Shown here one piece after another: positions 55,265-62,350 of a stretch of 64,000 nucleotides of DNA. This stretch comes from Rhodanobacter panaciterrae (GTDB lineage: Bacteria > Pseudomonadota > Gammaproteobacteria > Xanthomonadales > Rhodanobacteraceae): positions 806,001 to 870,000 of the forward strand of contig NZ_BMXT01000002.1 in assembly GCF_014651895.1 (NCBI RefSeq), in the 5' to 3' direction. The position numbers and the translations under genes are program-made. Each line of letters starts with the position of its first letter. Position 1 is the first letter of the stretch. The notes under the pieces are model-generated. The model was not told the DNA's origin. It searched no databases and worked only from the letters and a program-made list of their open reading frames with translations.

Positions 55265-55738
55265 TCAGTCCAGCGATTTCTCGTAGCGCCAGGCATGGGT
55301 GCCGTCCTGGTAGTAATGCGGGTAATGGCCGATATGCCGATAACCATGGCGTTCGTACAGGCGCACCGCGCCGGCGTTGTCATCGCGCACTTCCAGCCGC
55401 ACCGCATGGCAGCGGCGCTGACGGGCGGCCGCTTCGACGGCGTCCAGCAGCGCGGCACCGACACCCTTGCCGCGCGTCTCCGGCTTGCTGGCGATCGAAT
55501 ACAGTCGCGCCACACGGCTGCCCTTGCGAAAGAACACCACCGCCGTGCCGAGGAAGTTGCGGTGATTGGCGCTGGCCACCAGCACCAGCGCGGAATCGCT
55601 GTCCAGATGGCGGCGGTATTGCGCGCGGCTGAGCCGGTCGGTGTCGAAGCTGCTCTCTTCCAGTGTCACCAGATCATCCAGGTCGGACAACTCGGCGCGA
55701 CGCACGCGCACGCTGGCGCTGGCAGGCAGTGGGTGCAT
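55265..55738 (-). CDS. GNAT family N-acetyltransferase
   Basis: A 157-residue acetyltransferase of the RimI-like GNAT type. The acetyl-CoA loop is RGKGVGAALLDAVEA, preceded by the core strand RLYSIASKPE and followed by AVRLYERHGYRHIGHY, the usual C-terminal motif. The ATG at 55738 is preferred because GGAAGGA lies upstream; a GTG at 55795 lacks one. It is divergent from the RimK-like gene. In other gammaproteobacteria a GNAT protein fused to a C39-type peptidase is found beside this kind of RimK protein; here the peptidase part is absent. Confidence 0.87.
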   Translation of the reverse strand: MHPLPASASVRVRRAELSDLDDLVTLEESSFDTDRLSRAQYRRHLDSDSALVLVASANHRNFLGTAVVFFRKGSRVARLYSIASKPETRGKGVGAALLDAVEAAARQRRCHAVRLEVRDDNAGAVRLYERHGYRHIGHYPHYYQDGTHAWRYEKSLD

Positions 55739-56006
55739 GCTTTCGGGTTCCTTCCGACGAGGGTCGTGCAGCAGATGGGCAGGGGTAATCAGCACGCGCG
55801 GACTCTAGCAGCCGGCGCCATGCGACACCCGTGTTTTCTGGCAGGGTTCGATCCGTGTCGATGCTGTTTATTCAGGCTTCAGCGCCTCACCCTTATCTAA
55901 GGCAGGCCTTGTGCAGGACAGGCCCTGTGCCAAACTGCGCGACTTGTGTGTCCGGCCGCGCTCGCCGCAGGGCATCCCGCCATAGCCGCATCGTCTGAGT
56001 GGTGTC

Positions 56007-57491
56007 ATGACCCGTCTGGTCATCGTTGTCGAAAAAGCCTCCGACTGGAGTTCGTACTACCCGTCCGTCGACGTGATGAGCGCGATGGATTATCTGCGCG
56101 AGCCGGTCGGTGGCGACGACGAACGCACCCACGTGATCAACCTGTGCCGCAGCTACAAGTACCTGGGCACTGGTTACTACGTGTCGCTGCTGGCCGAGGC
56201 GCGCGGGCACAAGGTGATGCCGTCGGTGCGCACGGTGAACGACCTGCGTCGGCGCTCGCTGTACGGCGTGGACATCGAAGACCTCAACACCAAGCTGACG
56301 AATTTTCTTCCTGCCGGCGGCCGCGATACCACCGACTTCGGCATCCTGGTCTACTTCGGCGAGACCGCTTACCCGGCGCTGCAGGACTTGGCGCGGCAGG
56401 TGTTCGAATCGTTCCCCTGTCCGCTGCTGCGCATCGAGTTCGAGCGCGACCGCGTGTGGCAGGTCAGCTCGATCAAGCCGGTCGGCCTGCAGACGCTGGA
56501 CGATGCGCAGGAAGACGCATTCGCCGAAGAGCTCGACCGCTTCTCCAAGAAGCTGTGGCGCAAGCCGCGCGCGCGCAAGCTGTATCGCTACGACATCGCG
56601 ATGCTGGTCGATCCGGCCGAGCAGATGCCGCCATCGAACAAGAAGGCGCTGAAGGCGTTCATCGCGGCCGGCAAGGAGCTCGGCATCGAGGTCGATCCGA
56701 TCGGCAAGAACGACTACCAACGCCTCGCCGAATACGACGGCCTGTTCATCCGCGAGACCACCGCCAGCGACAACCACACCTACCGCTTCTCGCATCGCGC
56801 GGAGAAGGAAGGCATGGTGGTGATCGACGACCCGACCTCGATCCTGCGCTGCACCAACAAGATCTTCCTCAACGACTTGATGGTGTCGCGCAAGCTGGCG
56901 GTGCCGCGTACCGAGATCCTCTATCGGGATGACAGCAAGGGCATGAAGGAAGTCGTCGCCAAGCTCGGCTTTCCGCTGGTGCTGAAGATTCCCGACGGCT
57001 CGTTCTCGCGCGGCGTGGTCAAGGTGGAAAGCGAACAGGCACTGGAACAGGCGGCCAGCGGTCTGTTCCAGCACAGCGCCCTGCTGCTGGCGCAGGAGTT
57101 CGTCCCCACGGATTTCGACTGGCGCATCGGCGTGCTCAATCGCGAGCCGCTGTACGCGTGCAAGTACTACATGTCGCGCGGCCACTGGCAGATCTACAAC
57201 CACGGCGCCAAGGGCACCGCGAAATCCGGCGGCTTCGAGACGATCGCGGTGAAGGATGCGCCGGCCGAAGTGGTCAAGCTGGCGCTGAAGGCGACCCAGC
57301 CGATCGGCGACGGACTCTATGGTGTCGACCTGAAACAGGTCGGCAACAAGCCGGTGGTGATCGAGGTCAACGACAACCCGTCGATCGACGCCGGCGTCGA
57401 AGACGCCCATCTCGGCGATGCCCTGTACCTGCAGATCATGCAGGAGTTCCTGCGTCGGATGGAGCGCAAGCGGCAGGGCATTACCGGCTGA
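56007..57491 (+). CDS. RimK-like ATP-grasp ligase with RLAN N-terminal domain
   Basis: A 494-residue cytosolic protein. Residues 1-150 match the RimK-like N-terminal domain that starts RLVIVVEKASDWSSYYPS. The C-terminal part (about 280-480) is an ATP-grasp domain with LVLKIPDGSFSRGVVKVES as the glycine-rich loop and VIEVNDNPSIDAGVE as the metal-binding end. RimK-group enzymes join glutamate or another amino acid to a carboxylate, but this long subgroup has no settled substrate. It is divergent from a GNAT gene 268 bp away. A palindromic repeat follows the stop. Confidence 0.9.
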   Translation: MTRLVIVVEKASDWSSYYPSVDVMSAMDYLREPVGGDDERTHVINLCRSYKYLGTGYYVSLLAEARGHKVMPSVRTVNDLRRRSLYGVDIEDLNTKLTNFLPAGGRDTTDFGILVYFGETAYPALQDLARQVFESFPCPLLRIEFERDRVWQVSSIKPVGLQTLDDAQEDAFAEELDRFSKKLWRKPRARKLYRYDIAMLVDPAEQMPPSNKKALKAFIAAGKELGIEVDPIGKNDYQRLAEYDGLFIRETTASDNHTYRFSHRAEKEGMVVIDDPTSILRCTNKIFLNDLMVSRKLAVPRTEILYRDDSKGMKEVVAKLGFPLVLKIPDGSFSRGVVKVESEQALEQAASGLFQHSALLLAQEFVPTDFDWRIGVLNREPLYACKYYMSRGHWQIYNHGAKGTAKSGGFETIAVKDAPAEVVKLALKATQPIGDGLYGVDLKQVGNKPVVIEVNDNPSIDAGVEDAHLGDALYLQIMQEFLRRMERKRQGITG

Positions 57492-57554: not shown

Positions 57555-57812
57555 TCAATGCCATACCGCCGCGTGAAGGGTGTGCCGGCGCGGCCGACAC
57601 AACGCCAGAAACTGACGCGGCAGTGCCGGCTCCAGCACCAGCAACACGACCAGTGGTGCGCCGAGCAGCCAGAACGCCGGCGTCCAGCCGAGCAGCTCGG
57701 TATGCAGTGGAACCAAGGTAGTCAGCAGCAACGCACCGCCACTCAGCAGCCACAGCATGGCGGCACCGAGCAGGCGTTGATGGTGTGCAGACGGCAAGGA
57801 TGATGGACGCAT
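57555..57812 (-). CDS. Small two-helix membrane protein
   Basis: An 85-residue hydrophobic protein with two likely helices (about residues 14-34 and 42-62) and a basic C-terminal tail (RPRRHTLHAAVWH). The ATG at 57812 is not preceded by a strong ribosome binding site. A much longer in-frame extension upstream runs through the aroE promoter region and is rejected. Function unknown. It is divergent from aroE and convergent with the RimK-like gene. Confidence 0.6.
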   Translation of the reverse strand: MRPSSLPSAHHQRLLGAAMLWLLSGGALLLTTLVPLHTELLGWTPAFWLLGAPLVVLLVLEPALPRQFLALCRPRRHTLHAAVWH

Positions 57813-57971: not shown

Positions 57972-58799
57972 ATGCAACCCGCCCAGTTCGCCGTGTTTGG
58001 CCATCCGATCGGCCACAGCCTGTCGCCGCAGATCCACCGCGCGTTCGCGCAGCAGTTCGGCATCTCGCTCGACTACCGCACGATCGACGCGACGCCGGCC
58101 GATTTCGCCGCGGCGGTACGGCGCTTCTTCGCCGAAGATGGTCACGGTGCGAACGTCACCGTGCCGCACAAGGCCGCCGCGTTTGCGCTGGCGGATACGC
58201 GCAGCGAAGCGGCCAGCCGCGCCGGCAGCGCGAATGTGCTGACGCGATTGCCCGATGGCCGATTGGCCGCGCACAACACCGACGGCGCCGGCATGGTGCG
58301 CGACCTGACCGAGCGTCACGACATGGATCTGCGCGGCCACACCGCGCTGTTGCTCGGCGCCGGCGGTGCCGCACACGGCGTGGCGTGGAACCTGCTGGAT
58401 GCCGGCGTGGAGACGCTGACCATCGTCAACCGCTCGCCGGAAGCGGCCGACGCGCTGGCCGATGCGATCGGCGAACCGGCACGCGCGCATACGCGTTACT
58501 GGGAAGACCTGGCCAGCATCGGCAGCTACGACCTGATCGTCAACGCGACTTCGGCCGGCCTGCTCGGCGTGTCGCTGCAACTGCCGTTCTCGCTGCTCGG
58601 CGCGCGCGCGCTGTGCTACGACCTGTCCTACGGCGCGGCGGCCGCCAGTTTCCTGGCCTGGGCGAAAACCGCCGGCGCACGCTATGCGTTCGACGGGCTA
58701 GGTATGCTGGTGGAGACGGCTGCCGATGCGTTCGAGCTGTGGCACGGCCAGCGACCGGACACCGAGCCGGTGTACCAGCTGCTGCGGTCGGCGACTTGA
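57972..58799 (+). CDS. aroE: Shikimate dehydrogenase (NADP+)
   Basis: A 275-residue enzyme that reduces 3-dehydroshikimate to shikimate in aromatic amino acid synthesis. The substrate site has SLSP (16-19), K67 in NVTVPHK and D104 in HNTDG. The NADP-binding loop is [13 protein letters not shown] and NRSPEAA follows. The ATG at 57972 ([20 protein letters not shown]) gives the standard start; an earlier in-frame start at 57852 adds 40 unsupported residues. The stop is 2 bp before the start of a cysteine-cluster gene, so the two are co-transcribed. Confidence 0.97.
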
Positions 58800-59174: not shown

Positions 59175-59723
59175 ATGCCCCGTTTCCATTTCAGCGTATC
59201 GCAGCGATACGCACTTGCTCTTATTGCCGTACTGGTACTGACCGCGGCCGGCGGCATCTTCTGGTACAGCCGCGCCATGGCGAATGCCTCCTACGGCCCC
59301 GCCGGGTCGCCGACTGCGGCGGCGGCTGATGCGCCAGCGGACGATGCGCAAAGCGGCACCGGCATCCTGCTCGGGCTGGCCCGCGACGCGATGCACGATG
59401 GTCGCCTAGTGGCGCCCGCGGGCAGCAACGCCTACGAGTTCTACCTCAGCGTGCTGCAGCTGGAGCCGAAGAATCCGGCTGCGCAGGAGGCGTTGCGCGA
59501 ATCCTTTCCGCGCGCCGCGGTGGAGATCGAACACACCATCAATCAGTACGATCTGGAAGAGGCACGTCGTGAGATCGATCTGCTGCGCGAGTTCGACAGC
59601 AACAACTTCACGCTGGCCCTGCTCGGCGGCAAACTCTCGGCGGCGCGCAATATGGTGACAAAGCAGCACGAGGCGGAAGCGGAACGCAAGCAGGCCAGCG
59701 CCGGAAGTGCGACACGGATGTAA
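59175..59723 (+). CDS. Membrane-anchored TPR-like protein, similar to the middle domain of some TonB-like proteins
   Basis: A 182-residue protein with one N-terminal helix (about residues 11-31) and a periplasmic alpha-helical domain. The stretch AGSNAYEFYLSVLQLEPKNP, followed by AQEALRESFPRAAVEIE and LEEARREIDLLREFD, resembles, from memory, the helical middle part of certain Xanthomonadales TonB-like proteins, but the TonB C-terminal domain is absent. So it may be a scaffold. The end is Lys/Ala-rich. Gene is alone, convergent with the phosphatase gene 14 bp away. Confidence 0.72.
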   Translation: MPRFHFSVSQRYALALIAVLVLTAAGGIFWYSRAMANASYGPAGSPTAAAADAPADDAQSGTGILLGLARDAMHDGRLVAPAGSNAYEFYLSVLQLEPKNPAAQEALRESFPRAAVEIEHTINQYDLEEARREIDLLREFDSNNFTLALLGGKLSAARNMVTKQHEAEAERKQASAGSATRM

Positions 59724-59737
59724 CGCGGCATCGAGCG

Positions 59738-60064
59738 TCAACGCAGCAGCGGTCCGGCCTTTTTCAGCAGCAACGCCACCAGTTCCGGCTGCATGAAGTC
59801 ATAGCGGTCGGGAATGTCCAGGCAGACCACCTGCTTGCCTTTGAGTCGACTGCGGTGGCGCGTCTGCAGGCGTCGCCGGTGGCTGGCCTCCATCACCACG
59901 ATGAGGTCGGCCCACTCCAGCTGTTCATTCGTTAGCACCACTTCGGCATCGTCAGCCAGTCCGGCGGAGTCCACCTCCAGCTCCGGCCAAGTACCGAACA
60001 ACTGCTCGGCAGTGGGGCTGCGCAGGCGGTTGCGGCTGCACAGGAACAGGACGCGGCGAGTCAT
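59738..60064 (-). CDS. Low-molecular-weight protein tyrosine phosphatase-like protein
   Basis: A 108-residue protein. The active-site loop CSRNRLRS (C9 to R15, then S16) fits the CX5R(S/T) signature of tyrosine phosphatases. A DIPDRYDF segment (D83-D86) offers the general-acid aspartate. It is shorter than classic LMW-PTPs and belongs to the compact group annotated as predicted protein tyrosine phosphatase. Its ATG overlaps the stop of the gamma carbonic anhydrase gene by one base (TGATG), so the two are translationally coupled. Confidence 0.87.
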   Translation of the reverse strand: MTRRVLFLCSRNRLRSPTAEQLFGTWPELEVDSAGLADDAEVVLTNEQLEWADLIVVMEASHRRRLQTRHRSRLKGKQVVCLDIPDRYDFMQPELVALLLKKAGPLLR

Positions 60065-60597
60065 CAGGCGGAGGCCAGGTACTCGTCCTTCAAGCGCACG
60101 TAGTGATCGGCGGAGTAATGCAGCTGTTCGATCTGGCGGTCGCTGAGCAGGCGCACGAATTTCGCCGGGTTGCCCAGCCACAGCTCGCGCTCGCCGACCA
60201 CCTTGCCCGGTGGGATCAGCGCGCCGGCGCCGACGAAACCGTACTTCTGCACCACCGCACCGTCGAGCACGCTGGCGTGCATGCCGATCAGGCAGTAGTC
60301 GCCGATGGTGCAGGCGTGCACCACCGCGGCGTGGCCGATGGTGACACCCTCGCCGATCAGGCACGGAAAGCCCGGACCGTACGGGCCGGCGTGGGCGACG
60401 TGCACGATGCTGCCGTCCTGGATACTGGTGCGGGCGCCGACGCGGATGTAGTTCACATCGCCGCGCAGCACCGTGCCGGGCCAGATCGAGACATCGTCGC
60501 CGAGCACCACGTCGCCGATCACGCTGGCGGCCGGGTCGACGTAGACGCGTTCACCGAGGGTCGGCGTGATGCCCTTGTAGCTGCGCAGAGGATTCAT
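60064..60597 (-). CDS. Gamma carbonic anhydrase family protein (YrdA-like)
   Basis: A 177-residue left-handed beta-helix protein of hexapeptide repeats. The three metal-binding histidines are H66, H89 and H94 (in DGSIVHVAHA and IGHAAVVHAC). Some members are true carbonic anhydrases, but many close relatives have no proven activity. The ATG at 60597 gives MNPLRSYKGITPTLGERV, the family start. The start lies inside the end of the upstream patatin gene (47 bp overlap) and the stop overlaps the phosphatase start. Confidence 0.93.
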   Translation of the reverse strand: MNPLRSYKGITPTLGERVYVDPAASVIGDVVLGDDVSIWPGTVLRGDVNYIRVGARTSIQDGSIVHVAHAGPYGPGFPCLIGEGVTIGHAAVVHACTIGDYCLIGMHASVLDGAVVQKYGFVGAGALIPPGKVVGERELWLGNPAKFVRLLSDRQIEQLHYSADHYVRLKDEYLASA

Positions 60598-62350
60598 CCG
60601 CGCATGGTAACTGCTTGCGCGCGCGGGCTTCGAGCAGTTCGATCGTGTGCCGGTAACCGGCATCGATGGCACGCTGCCAGTCTTTCCAGTCGAGCATGCC
60701 GATGTGCTCGAGCGGCGGCGTGATCAGCAAGTCGGCGCGTGCGCGGCGCTGTTCGCTGGCCGCTTCACCGTTGACCATGCCGGCGCGCACCAGGGTCGAG
60801 ACCAGGCCCGGCCGGCGAATATCCTGCCGGCGCTGCAGCAGCAGGCGCCACAACGGCGGCGTGGCCGATTCCTCGGCGGTGGTAAGCAGCGCGATGTCGG
60901 CACGGATATCCAGCGCAGTGATGTGGGCGATACCGTCGGCGGCCATCACGTCGGTCGGCAGGTTGTCGACCAGTGCACCGTCGACATGCACTCGACCCTG
61001 GTGCAGCACCGGCGGCAAGACGCCGGGAATCGCGCTGGATGCGCGCAGCCACAGCCACAGCGGACCGCGTCGATGCACCGCCATGCCACCGCCGGACAGC
61101 TGGGTGGAGACGCAGAAATACGGCAGCGGCAAATCCTCGATCTCGAGTGCGCCGAAGGTGCGCCGCAGCATCAGCGAAGCGCGCCGGCCGCGCGTCATCG
61201 CCACCAGTGGCAGCGTCCAGTCCGATAGCGGGCGGCCCTGCACGAAGGCGCGCCGGAAGGTTTCCGTCATTGCGTCGAGTTCCCAGCCGCAGGCCATGCC
61301 GGCGCCGATGATCGCGCCGATGCTGGTACCGCCGACCGCATCGAACACATGGCCCGCTTCGTGGAGTGCCCGCAGCATGCCGAGGTGCGCCAGCCCGCGG
61401 GCGCCGCCGCCGGCCAGCACGACACCGCGGCCATGGCCGCTGACCCGTCGCGCCAGCCGCACGATGTCGCTGTCGTTGCAGATGTGATGGTGCCGCAGCT
61501 CACCGTTGAACGAGGCACGCCAGCGTTGCGCCGAACCGAGGCTGACCTGGTGGCCGGCATGCAACAGCACCAGGTGGCGCGCGCGATGGCCGGTGCGCTG
61601 CGGATCCAGCAGCGCGGCTTCCGGCCACGGCCGTGCCGGTTGTGCGGCCAGCGCCGGCAACAGCAGCACGTCGGCCTGGCGCAGGCAGCGCTGTCGCCAC
61701 AACGGGTCGCCGCTCGCATCCAGATAGATCACGAAGCGCAGCTGGGCCTCGCGCTCGGCGAACCAATCGCTGCTGCGGCCGGTACCCAGCTCGCCATCGA
61801 TCACGGCGCAACGGCCATAGGCTTCCAGCGCCTGCCCCAGCTGCATGGCCAGCACGCGGGCCGGCACCGCCTGATCCACCGGCAGGATGGCGAACGTGCG
61901 CGGCAAACCGGGCCGGCAGGCATCCGGGTCGCGTTGCTGCAGCCGCTCGATCGTTACCCGTGCCACGCCGAGCATTGCGTGCGGGTAGCGTCCGAGGAGG
62001 GTTTCGAAGGCGCCGCGATCGAGTCGCAGCAATTCGGAATCGCGCAATGCGCGCACGGTGCGGGTACGCCGTTCGCCGCCGAGCAGGCTGGTCGCCCCCA
62101 CGCATTCGCCGGCGGCAATCAGCTGGACCAGTTCGGCCGCATCTTCCGGCAGCCCGTCGTCGAACACGCCGAGGCTGCCGCTTTTCAGCAGATACAGCGC
62201 ATCGGCCGCTTCGCCGGATTTGAACAATGGCCGCCCGCCGGGCAGCGCCAGCCACACCAGCTCGCGGGCCAGCGCTTCACGCGCGGCTGCATCCAGTTGC
62301 GCAAACATGGCGCTGTGCGCAAGCAGTTCGGTGACATCCGGTGGCGACAT
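60551..62350 (-). CDS. Patatin-like phospholipase with cyclic nucleotide-binding domain
   Basis: A 599-residue protein. Residues about 10-130 form a cNMP-binding/CRP-type domain (LALPGGRPLFKSGEAADALY, then GECVGATSLLGGERRTRTVR). A middle region (150-300) resembles a nucleotide/ParA-like Rossmann domain that is common in this group. The patatin domain (about 310-500) has the oxyanion loop GGGARGLAHLG, nucleophile S343 (GTSIG) and D457 (VDGA). It is related to neuropathy-target-esterase-like bacterial enzymes that break phospholipids. The ATG at 62350 is preferred, with 62395 possible. Its 3' end overlaps the gamma carbonic anhydrase gene by 47 bp. Confidence 0.9.
   Translation of the reverse strand: MSPPDVTELLAHSAMFAQLDAAAREALARELVWLALPGGRPLFKSGEAADALYLLKSGSLGVFDDGLPEDAAELVQLIAAGECVGATSLLGGERRTRTVRALRDSELLRLDRGAFETLLGRYPHAMLGVARVTIERLQQRDPDACRPGLPRTFAILPVDQAVPARVLAMQLGQALEAYGRCAVIDGELGTGRSSDWFAEREAQLRFVIYLDASGDPLWRQRCLRQADVLLLPALAAQPARPWPEAALLDPQRTGHRARHLVLLHAGHQVSLGSAQRWRASFNGELRHHHICNDSDIVRLARRVSGHGRGVVLAGGGARGLAHLGMLRALHEAGHVFDAVGGTSIGAIIGAGMACGWELDAMTETFRRAFVQGRPLSDWTLPLVAMTRGRRASLMLRRTFGALEIEDLPLPYFCVSTQLSGGGMAVHRRGPLWLWLRASSAIPGVLPPVLHQGRVHVDGALVDNLPTDVMAADGIAHITALDIRADIALLTTAEESATPPLWRLLLQRRQDIRRPGLVSTLVRAGMVNGEAASEQRRARADLLITPPLEHIGMLDWKDWQRAIDAGYRHTIELLEARARKQLPCADESSAQLQGHHADPR

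Follow-up and report, generated by a model that had tools for sequence, protein, structure and literature searches.

The question raised by this locus is what a RimK-like ATP-grasp ligase of the RLAN subgroup makes, and what part a GNAT acetyltransferase encoded beside it plays. The two genes lie back to back in a stretch of 64,000 nucleotides of the Rhodanobacter panaciterrae genome (contig NZ_BMXT01000002.1, positions 806,001–870,000 of the forward strand), referred to here as the window. An earlier note, made from the sequence of this stretch alone, had linked them to a scheme in which a peptide is made, cut and acetylated. The analysis showed the pairing of GNAT and RLAN to be genuine and strongly conserved; with its two genes, the module is a GNAT-only version of a gene pairing already known.

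Identity of the ligase and the acetyltransferase

Both open reading frames of the divergent pair were confirmed. The ligase frame begins with an ATG at 56007 and its stop codon ends at 57491. The GNAT frame, with its stop codon at 55265–55267, can begin either at an ATG at 55738, giving 157 amino acids, or at a GTG at 55795, giving 176 amino acids in the mechanical list of frames, and its start is therefore a choice; taking the ATG sets the gap between the genes at 268 bp (55739–56006). The closest named relatives were from Rhodanobacter, with protein identity of up to 98%. With regard to a defence-system role, neither the GNAT nor the ligase was matched in PADLOC.

The assignment of the ligase to the RLAN subgroup held. 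The RLAN domain (PF14401) was identified with Pfam in residues 27–174 (E=1.2e-51, 174.8 bits against a cut-off of 25) and is followed by a RimK ATP-grasp domain in residues 284–461 (E=5.4e-11, 42.9 bits, cut-off 21), the domain order by which membership of the RLAN-ligase family was judged. In the structure model (predicted local distance difference test, pLDDT, 86.1; predicted template modelling score, pTM, 0.61), residues 195–487 matched ArgX (Z 28.2), LysX (28.1), LysX/ArgX (27.7) and RimK (27.3); the matches listed cover approximately residues 190–494 and do not include the N-terminal RLAN domain, which is an addition relative to LysX and ArgX. Residues K285, K327, D371, W372, R373, D441, E453 and N455 were invariant in 44 ligase sequences. 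In ATP-grasp enzymes such positions bind ATP, magnesium and substrate, and aligned RimK and LysX segments support this role for the invariant positions of the ligase. Despite the shared fold, sequence similarity to RimK was weak (NF007764, 40.3 bits, cut-off 331) and the ligase also fell below the LysX threshold (TIGR02144, 74.3 bits, cut-off 275.6). RLAN is single-copy in the source genome, and a canonical RimK is encoded elsewhere in it (G000:C2:224051; 418.9 bits, cut-off 331).

For the GNAT protein, Pfam Acetyltransf_1 was matched at E=8.1e-19 and the structure model (pLDDT 95.0) was closest to Ard1 and RimI (Z 22.0). Among the first 19 structure matches, 18 carry titles of Ard1, RimI, N-acetyltransferase (NAT) or Naa/Nat complexes; the remaining one, 9mto, goes by the name of an S18-alanine N-acetyltransferase. 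Y143 is invariant and Y142 nearly so, and this Tyr-Tyr pair near the C-terminus is shared with the genome's own RimI. The protein nevertheless differs from RimI in scoring below the cut-off of TIGR01575 (75.4 bits, cut-off 86.4), whereas a canonical RimI elsewhere in the genome scored 122.4 bits; it was also far below the cut-off of the N-acetylglutaminylglutamine synthetase model TIGR03103 (30.9 bits, cut-off 569). The location of canonical RimK and RimI genes elsewhere indicates that the RLAN/GNAT pair is something additional.

Conservation, linkage and co-occurrence

RLAN was detected in 145 of 147 family genomes, 51 of 151 sampled from the order, 34 of 143 from the class and 42 of 200 from the phylum, with overlap between these samples. 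Of the genomes with RLAN hits, loci were fetched from 31 in the family apart from the source (out of 144, covering 25 of 26 sampled genera), from 20 of the 26 that belong to the order but not the family and from 29 of 33 in the class; the phylum contributed 20 more loci, drawn from 19 of 39 additional genomes. Across the resulting 101 mapped loci, window included, a GNAT adjoins RLAN in 83. It lacks a C39 peptidase domain in 45 divergent and 6 co-directional loci, and GNAT plus C39 was present in 32 (24 co-directional, 8 divergent). The loci without GNAT comprise 17 of a second type, named here after its GCS2 gene, and one (L167) with none of these partners. All 31 mapped family loci, like the window, are divergent and GNAT-only, and a divergent GNAT was found at 79 of the 80 best named loci, the miss (L218) having 359 bp of sequence upstream of RLAN. 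The earlier note had staked its case on conserved pairing of the genes and on conserved small frames between them; the first is borne out and the second, as described below, is not.

The adjacency persists under differing flanks. GNAT was retained at 31 of 31 family loci, compared with 25 for xerC, 26 for dapF and 25 for aroE, counts in which some loci are cut by contig ends; the names xerC, dapF and DUF484 are our reading of the sequence, and aroE is supported by Pfam.

A GNAT profile was then run over 35 genomes for co-occurrence, and orthologues (162–201 bits) were clearly separated from other GNATs (at most 86 bits). An orthologue was present in all eight genomes with a GNAT-type RLAN locus, in none of five with a GCS2-type locus and in one of 22 scored RLAN-negative. 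Five of the eight positives (G151, G157, G169, G212 and G225) had supplied rows of the profile and three (G174, G008 and G075) had not; in G075, whose locus is outside the 101 mapped, the profile search results place GNAT beside RLAN. The single RLAN-negative genome with an orthologue (G100, a family member) has a contig end 142 bp past the GNAT, so its ligase gene may simply be unassembled. In the other RLAN-negative family genome (G056) the best GNAT scored 72 bits, and hence there is no orthologue-level GNAT.

RLAN identity to the window across the 31 family loci had a median of 87% and a minimum of 73%. RLAN conservation exceeded that of xerC at 25 of 25 loci, of DUF484 and dapF at 26 of 26 each, of aroE at 24 of 25, of the gene at 59175 at 10 of 10 and of GNAT at 31 of 31, and that of the gene at 60064–60600 at only 9 of 14. 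Because RLAN outranks its neighbours in this way, sequence conservation points to a core enzyme rather than part of a sporadic biosynthetic cluster. The suggestion of a little-described biosynthetic system, if meant as a secondary-metabolite cluster, is therefore doubtful: the ligase is nearly always above dapF and aroE in conservation, and no recurring transporter, regulator or precursor gene was recognised beside RLAN in maps where most open reading frames are unannotated.

The C39 peptidase part

The earlier note had stated that a GNAT fused to a C39-type peptidase sits beside RLAN in other bacteria, and such one-frame fusions were found at 31 of the 101 loci, which leaves a single exception among the 32 GNAT-plus-C39 loci. 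The window shares with these loci the RLAN family PF14401 and an adjacent homologous GNAT, which aligns with the GNAT half of the fusions (for example that of L102, 46% over 145 amino acids, E=1e-41). It differs from them in its divergent orientation, most of the 32 being co-directional, and in the C39 domain (DUF3335), which was found neither in the GNAT gene nor in the genome.

The absence of the peptidase part, also anticipated, was examined by searching for it elsewhere. PF11814 (C39-like, DUF3335), which is independent of the rows used in our own C39 profile, gave no match in the source genome; its cut-off was exceeded in G225 and one named control, and it matched in 2 of 151 order genomes, one of them (G049, in the family) below cut-off at 20.5 bits. 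None of 59 family genomes, source included, was matched by a profile built from 25 C39 domains of RLAN loci, both fused and solo. Of five other genomes, four were matched strongly by this profile, each having contributed rows to it, and G157 was matched at 22.8 bits. The weak matches in G157 and G049 were taken as noise, the 25-row profile giving nothing in G049, and a C39 domain elsewhere in the source genome was rejected on the basis of the two profiles.

In both the class and the phylum sample, GNAT-only loci recur alongside GNAT-C39 loci; judged by these comparisons, C39 is a separable part. The RLAN tree contained 82 of the 101 loci, after 19 family rows, all divergent and GNAT-only, were dropped to thin it, and the GNAT tree contained the 64 of these with GNAT (9 of 61 inner branches starred); both are unrooted quick trees, which do not fix the direction of C39 change (loss or gain) or the number of independent losses. 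Of the two RLAN loci in the genome G465 (L162 and L163), one has GNAT-C39 whereas the other has a GNAT without C39. Their RLAN copies are sisters (99, starred) and their GNATs are not, so loss of C39 from one of two sister copies is not claimed. In an order relative (L152, in G225), the exception to the one-frame fusions, the GNAT and C39 domains are co-directional and not in one open frame, representing either two genes or a frame break.

A second locus type and recurring neighbours

The 17 GCS2-type loci (including L107, L109 and L113) formed one well-supported clade in the RLAN tree (100, starred). In 16 of them a solo C39-like protein precedes RLAN, L156 having no C39, and in 16 a GCS2 carboxylate-amine ligase and an N-formylglutamate amidohydrolase-like protein (FGase) follow it; L120, within this clade, has C39 alone. 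The Pfam names come from L107 and were extended to the other loci by profile. Solo C39-like protein, RLAN, GCS2 and FGase together represent a candidate four-gene peptide pathway.

Six other loci have DUF2817 in the vicinity of RLAN, its name being taken from Pfam for L096 and L121. Of the 29 class loci, 6 have argA and/or argE close to GNAT-C39-RLAN (both in L100 and L115, argA in L102, argE in L094, L108 and L118; names from NCBIfam for L115 and from clustering for the others), which may point to a connection with N-acetylglutamate or arginine metabolism. The linked FGase, DUF2817, M20 and M14 hydrolases were also considered as one superfamily. This was not supported, with hhalign giving probabilities of 0.1–22.5% for the five pairs tried, and an argument from common chemistry therefore rests on names only.

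Predicted function and alternatives

The explanation we favour, tentatively and with slightly less than even confidence, is that the pair ligates an amino acid and acetylates an alpha-amine to give a capped N-acetylated short peptide. The GNAT and the RLAN ligase would act as a two-enzyme module, probably in the cytoplasm. With ATP, the ligase would activate a carboxylate by forming an acyl-phosphate and would couple this to an amino acid at its amino group, in the manner of LysX, ArgX and RimK; glutamate is the likeliest amino acid. The GNAT, as an enzyme of the N-alpha-acetyltransferase type, would acetylate a free alpha-amine of the precursor or product. The product would thus be a capped N-acetylated short peptide, with a small molecule rather than a protein as the putative acceptor. 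In other lineages the papain-like C39 domain would be an accessory that trims or hydrolyses the product. Since no C39-kind cutting partner was found here, the making, cutting and acetylation of a peptide cannot describe this locus completely.

The small-molecule reading comes from the sister locus type, in which GCS2 and an FGase-like protein stand in place of GNAT, and from DUF2817 near RLAN. In outline, ligation followed by acyl capping has a published parallel in the proposal that R2K ATP-grasp ligation is capped by a linked GNAT (PMC4431377); R2K is a different ATP-grasp family, and the available part of that paper does not mention the RLAN domain. The fusion of DUF3335 to GNAT is remarked on in a paper on papain-like proteases (PMC10318531), in broad agreement with the favoured mechanism.

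Several observations weigh against a small peptide made jointly by the two enzymes. The 18 RLAN loci with no such GNAT adjoining (17 GCS2-type and L167) show that GNAT is not indispensable to the ligase, and L152, which has a C39 domain beside its GNAT, falls inside the window's own RLAN clade. The fold match of the GNAT is not exclusive, PaiA (Z 20.2) and phosphinothricin acetyltransferase (19.5) being close below and many SpeG spermidine acetyltransferases appearing among the first 50 Foldseek matches. LysX, ArgX, RimK and the nearest folds of the GNAT act on proteins, which fits a protein target equally well. Literature searches gave no paper on RLAN function and no substrate, product or phenotype, and the term 'RLAN' was not found in the main text of PMC7367687.

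The strongest alternative is accordingly protein modification by a second RimK/RimI-like pair. RLAN would extend a specific protein, at its C-terminus or on a side chain, by one or more amino acids (glutamate), and the GNAT would act on the N-terminus of that protein or of one associated with it. We regard this as possible but doubtful. The protein-acting nearest folds argue for it, as does the constraint on RLAN, a single-copy core gene above xerC, dapF and aroE in conservation, as one would expect if the enzyme were tied to a conserved protein; so does the lack of any recognised, consistently linked gene for product handling. Against these stand the partner set of GCS2, FGase and solo C39, which suggests small peptides, the canonical RimK and RimI already present in the genome, and the failure to find a linked candidate target gene. 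The acceptor is thus the point on which the evidence divides, a small peptide being favoured by the alternative partner set and a protein by the folds and the constraint.

It is improbable that the two genes are independent, with the GNAT a small-molecule resistance or housekeeping enzyme kept in place by shared promoter architecture or synteny. GNATs are indeed abundant (17 profile matches in the source genome) and this one is less conserved than RLAN at every family locus, but it adjoins RLAN more consistently than do xerC, dapF or aroE, the pairing recurs across the order, class and phylum, and the GNAT co-occurs genome-wide with GNAT-type RLAN.

A LysW-like pathway, in which RLAN would charge an unlinked small acidic carrier protein that protects amino acids, is consistent with ArgX and LysX as best fold matches (Z 28) and with the arg genes near some class loci. 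We consider it very unlikely, as those arg genes occur in few lineages only; no linked small conserved open reading frame was recognised, nor a LysW-like gene near the window ligase, although no search for such a carrier was made across the genome.

Taking the capped peptide and the protein mark together, we hold it about as probable as its opposite that a core enzyme pair, near-universal in the family, makes either an N-acetylated peptide that contains glutamate and is still to be discovered or a second protein mark of the RimK/RimI kind, and that its accessory sets are interchangeable across the Pseudomonadota (GNAT alone, GNAT-C39, or C39 with GCS2 and FGase). A 2009 amidoligase review reportedly described the RLAN/GNAT-C39 context. 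The RLAN gene is present in nearly all genomes of the family and, at almost every locus, exceeds its housekeeping neighbours xerC, dapF and aroE in conservation, yet no substrate was found in the literature. GNAT-only is the smallest recurring arrangement found, with two genes, and is therefore a simple place to identify the product of RLAN ligases, and the alternative partner sets provide testable clues to RLAN chemistry.

The divergent intergenic region

The gap between the genes has counterparts of 157–425 bp (median 243) in 79 named relatives. Column conservation was taken from an alignment of 80 gaps, and the conserved blocks (Table 1) look like promoters and a ribosome-binding site. The block at 55866–55885 lies upstream of the promoter-like elements of the ligase; its core pattern occurs once exactly in the source genome and at 7 places with up to two mismatches, compared with 1 for the reversed control. 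A sigma-70 consensus scan of the gap returned 0 promoters, which counts against a promoter reading of 55909–55936. A terminator-like site at 55926–55941, overlapping this promoter-like block, was taken as chance. Upstream of the −35-like element of the ligase there are 17 bases at 55889–55905 (around TTATCTAAGGCAGG), and at these columns the commonest state among the 80 aligned gaps is a gap.

The earlier note had also raised a short substrate peptide or a regulatory RNA within this region. The seven contained small frames of at least 8 amino acids were intact in 0, 1, 2, 0, 0, 0 and 0 of the 79 relatives, and the longest open reading frame per gap (median 42.5 amino acids) was no longer than in shuffles (45). 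In this frame-by-frame test of the gap, no conserved precursor gene of the kind expected for a ribosomally synthesized and post-translationally modified peptide (RiPP) or a graspetide was contained in it. The best Rfam match scored 13.6 bits against a gathering score of 82, and the consensus fold of the ligase leader, from 16 of the 80 gaps, reached −2.95 kcal/mol with one pair showing two-sided change and no convincing covariation. The retention of the gap and its conserved blocks notwithstanding, a RiPP-like peptide or regulatory RNA encoded here is highly implausible given the broken frames and the weak Rfam and folding results.

Feature coordinates and flanking genes

Table 1. Features of the GNAT/RLAN locus, in positions of the window
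Feature	Position	Strand	Remark
GNAT acetyltransferase, RimI/Ard1-like, 157 amino acids, without C39 domain	55265..55738	-	ATG start chosen
Divergent intergenic region, 268 bp	55739..56006	.	contains no conserved reading frame
ACTCTAG (CTAGAGT on the minus strand), possible GNAT −10 element	55802..55808	-	80-gap conservation; function inferred
GTTTA.TC..GCTTCAGCGC, possible activator or upstream promoter (UP) site	55866..55885	+	80-gap conservation; function inferred
TTGTGC - 16 nt - CAAACT, possible ligase −35/−10	55909..55936	+	80-gap conservation
CTGAG..GGTGTC just before ATG, putative ligase Shine-Dalgarno region	55995..56006	+	80-gap conservation
RLAN + RimK-like ATP-grasp ligase, 494 amino acids	56007..57491	+	RLAN domain 27–174; ATP-grasp half approximately 195–487

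Between the ligase and aroE, a conserved 85-amino-acid protein with hydrophobic stretches is encoded on the minus strand (57555–57812), and its gene was matched in 78 of the 80 named loci and 21 of the 31 family loci. It was ruled out as a third partner because it keeps with aroE in L079, where RLAN and aroE are separated. Directly after aroE lies the gene for a short CxxCxxCC-domain protein, beginning at 58799 on the plus strand.

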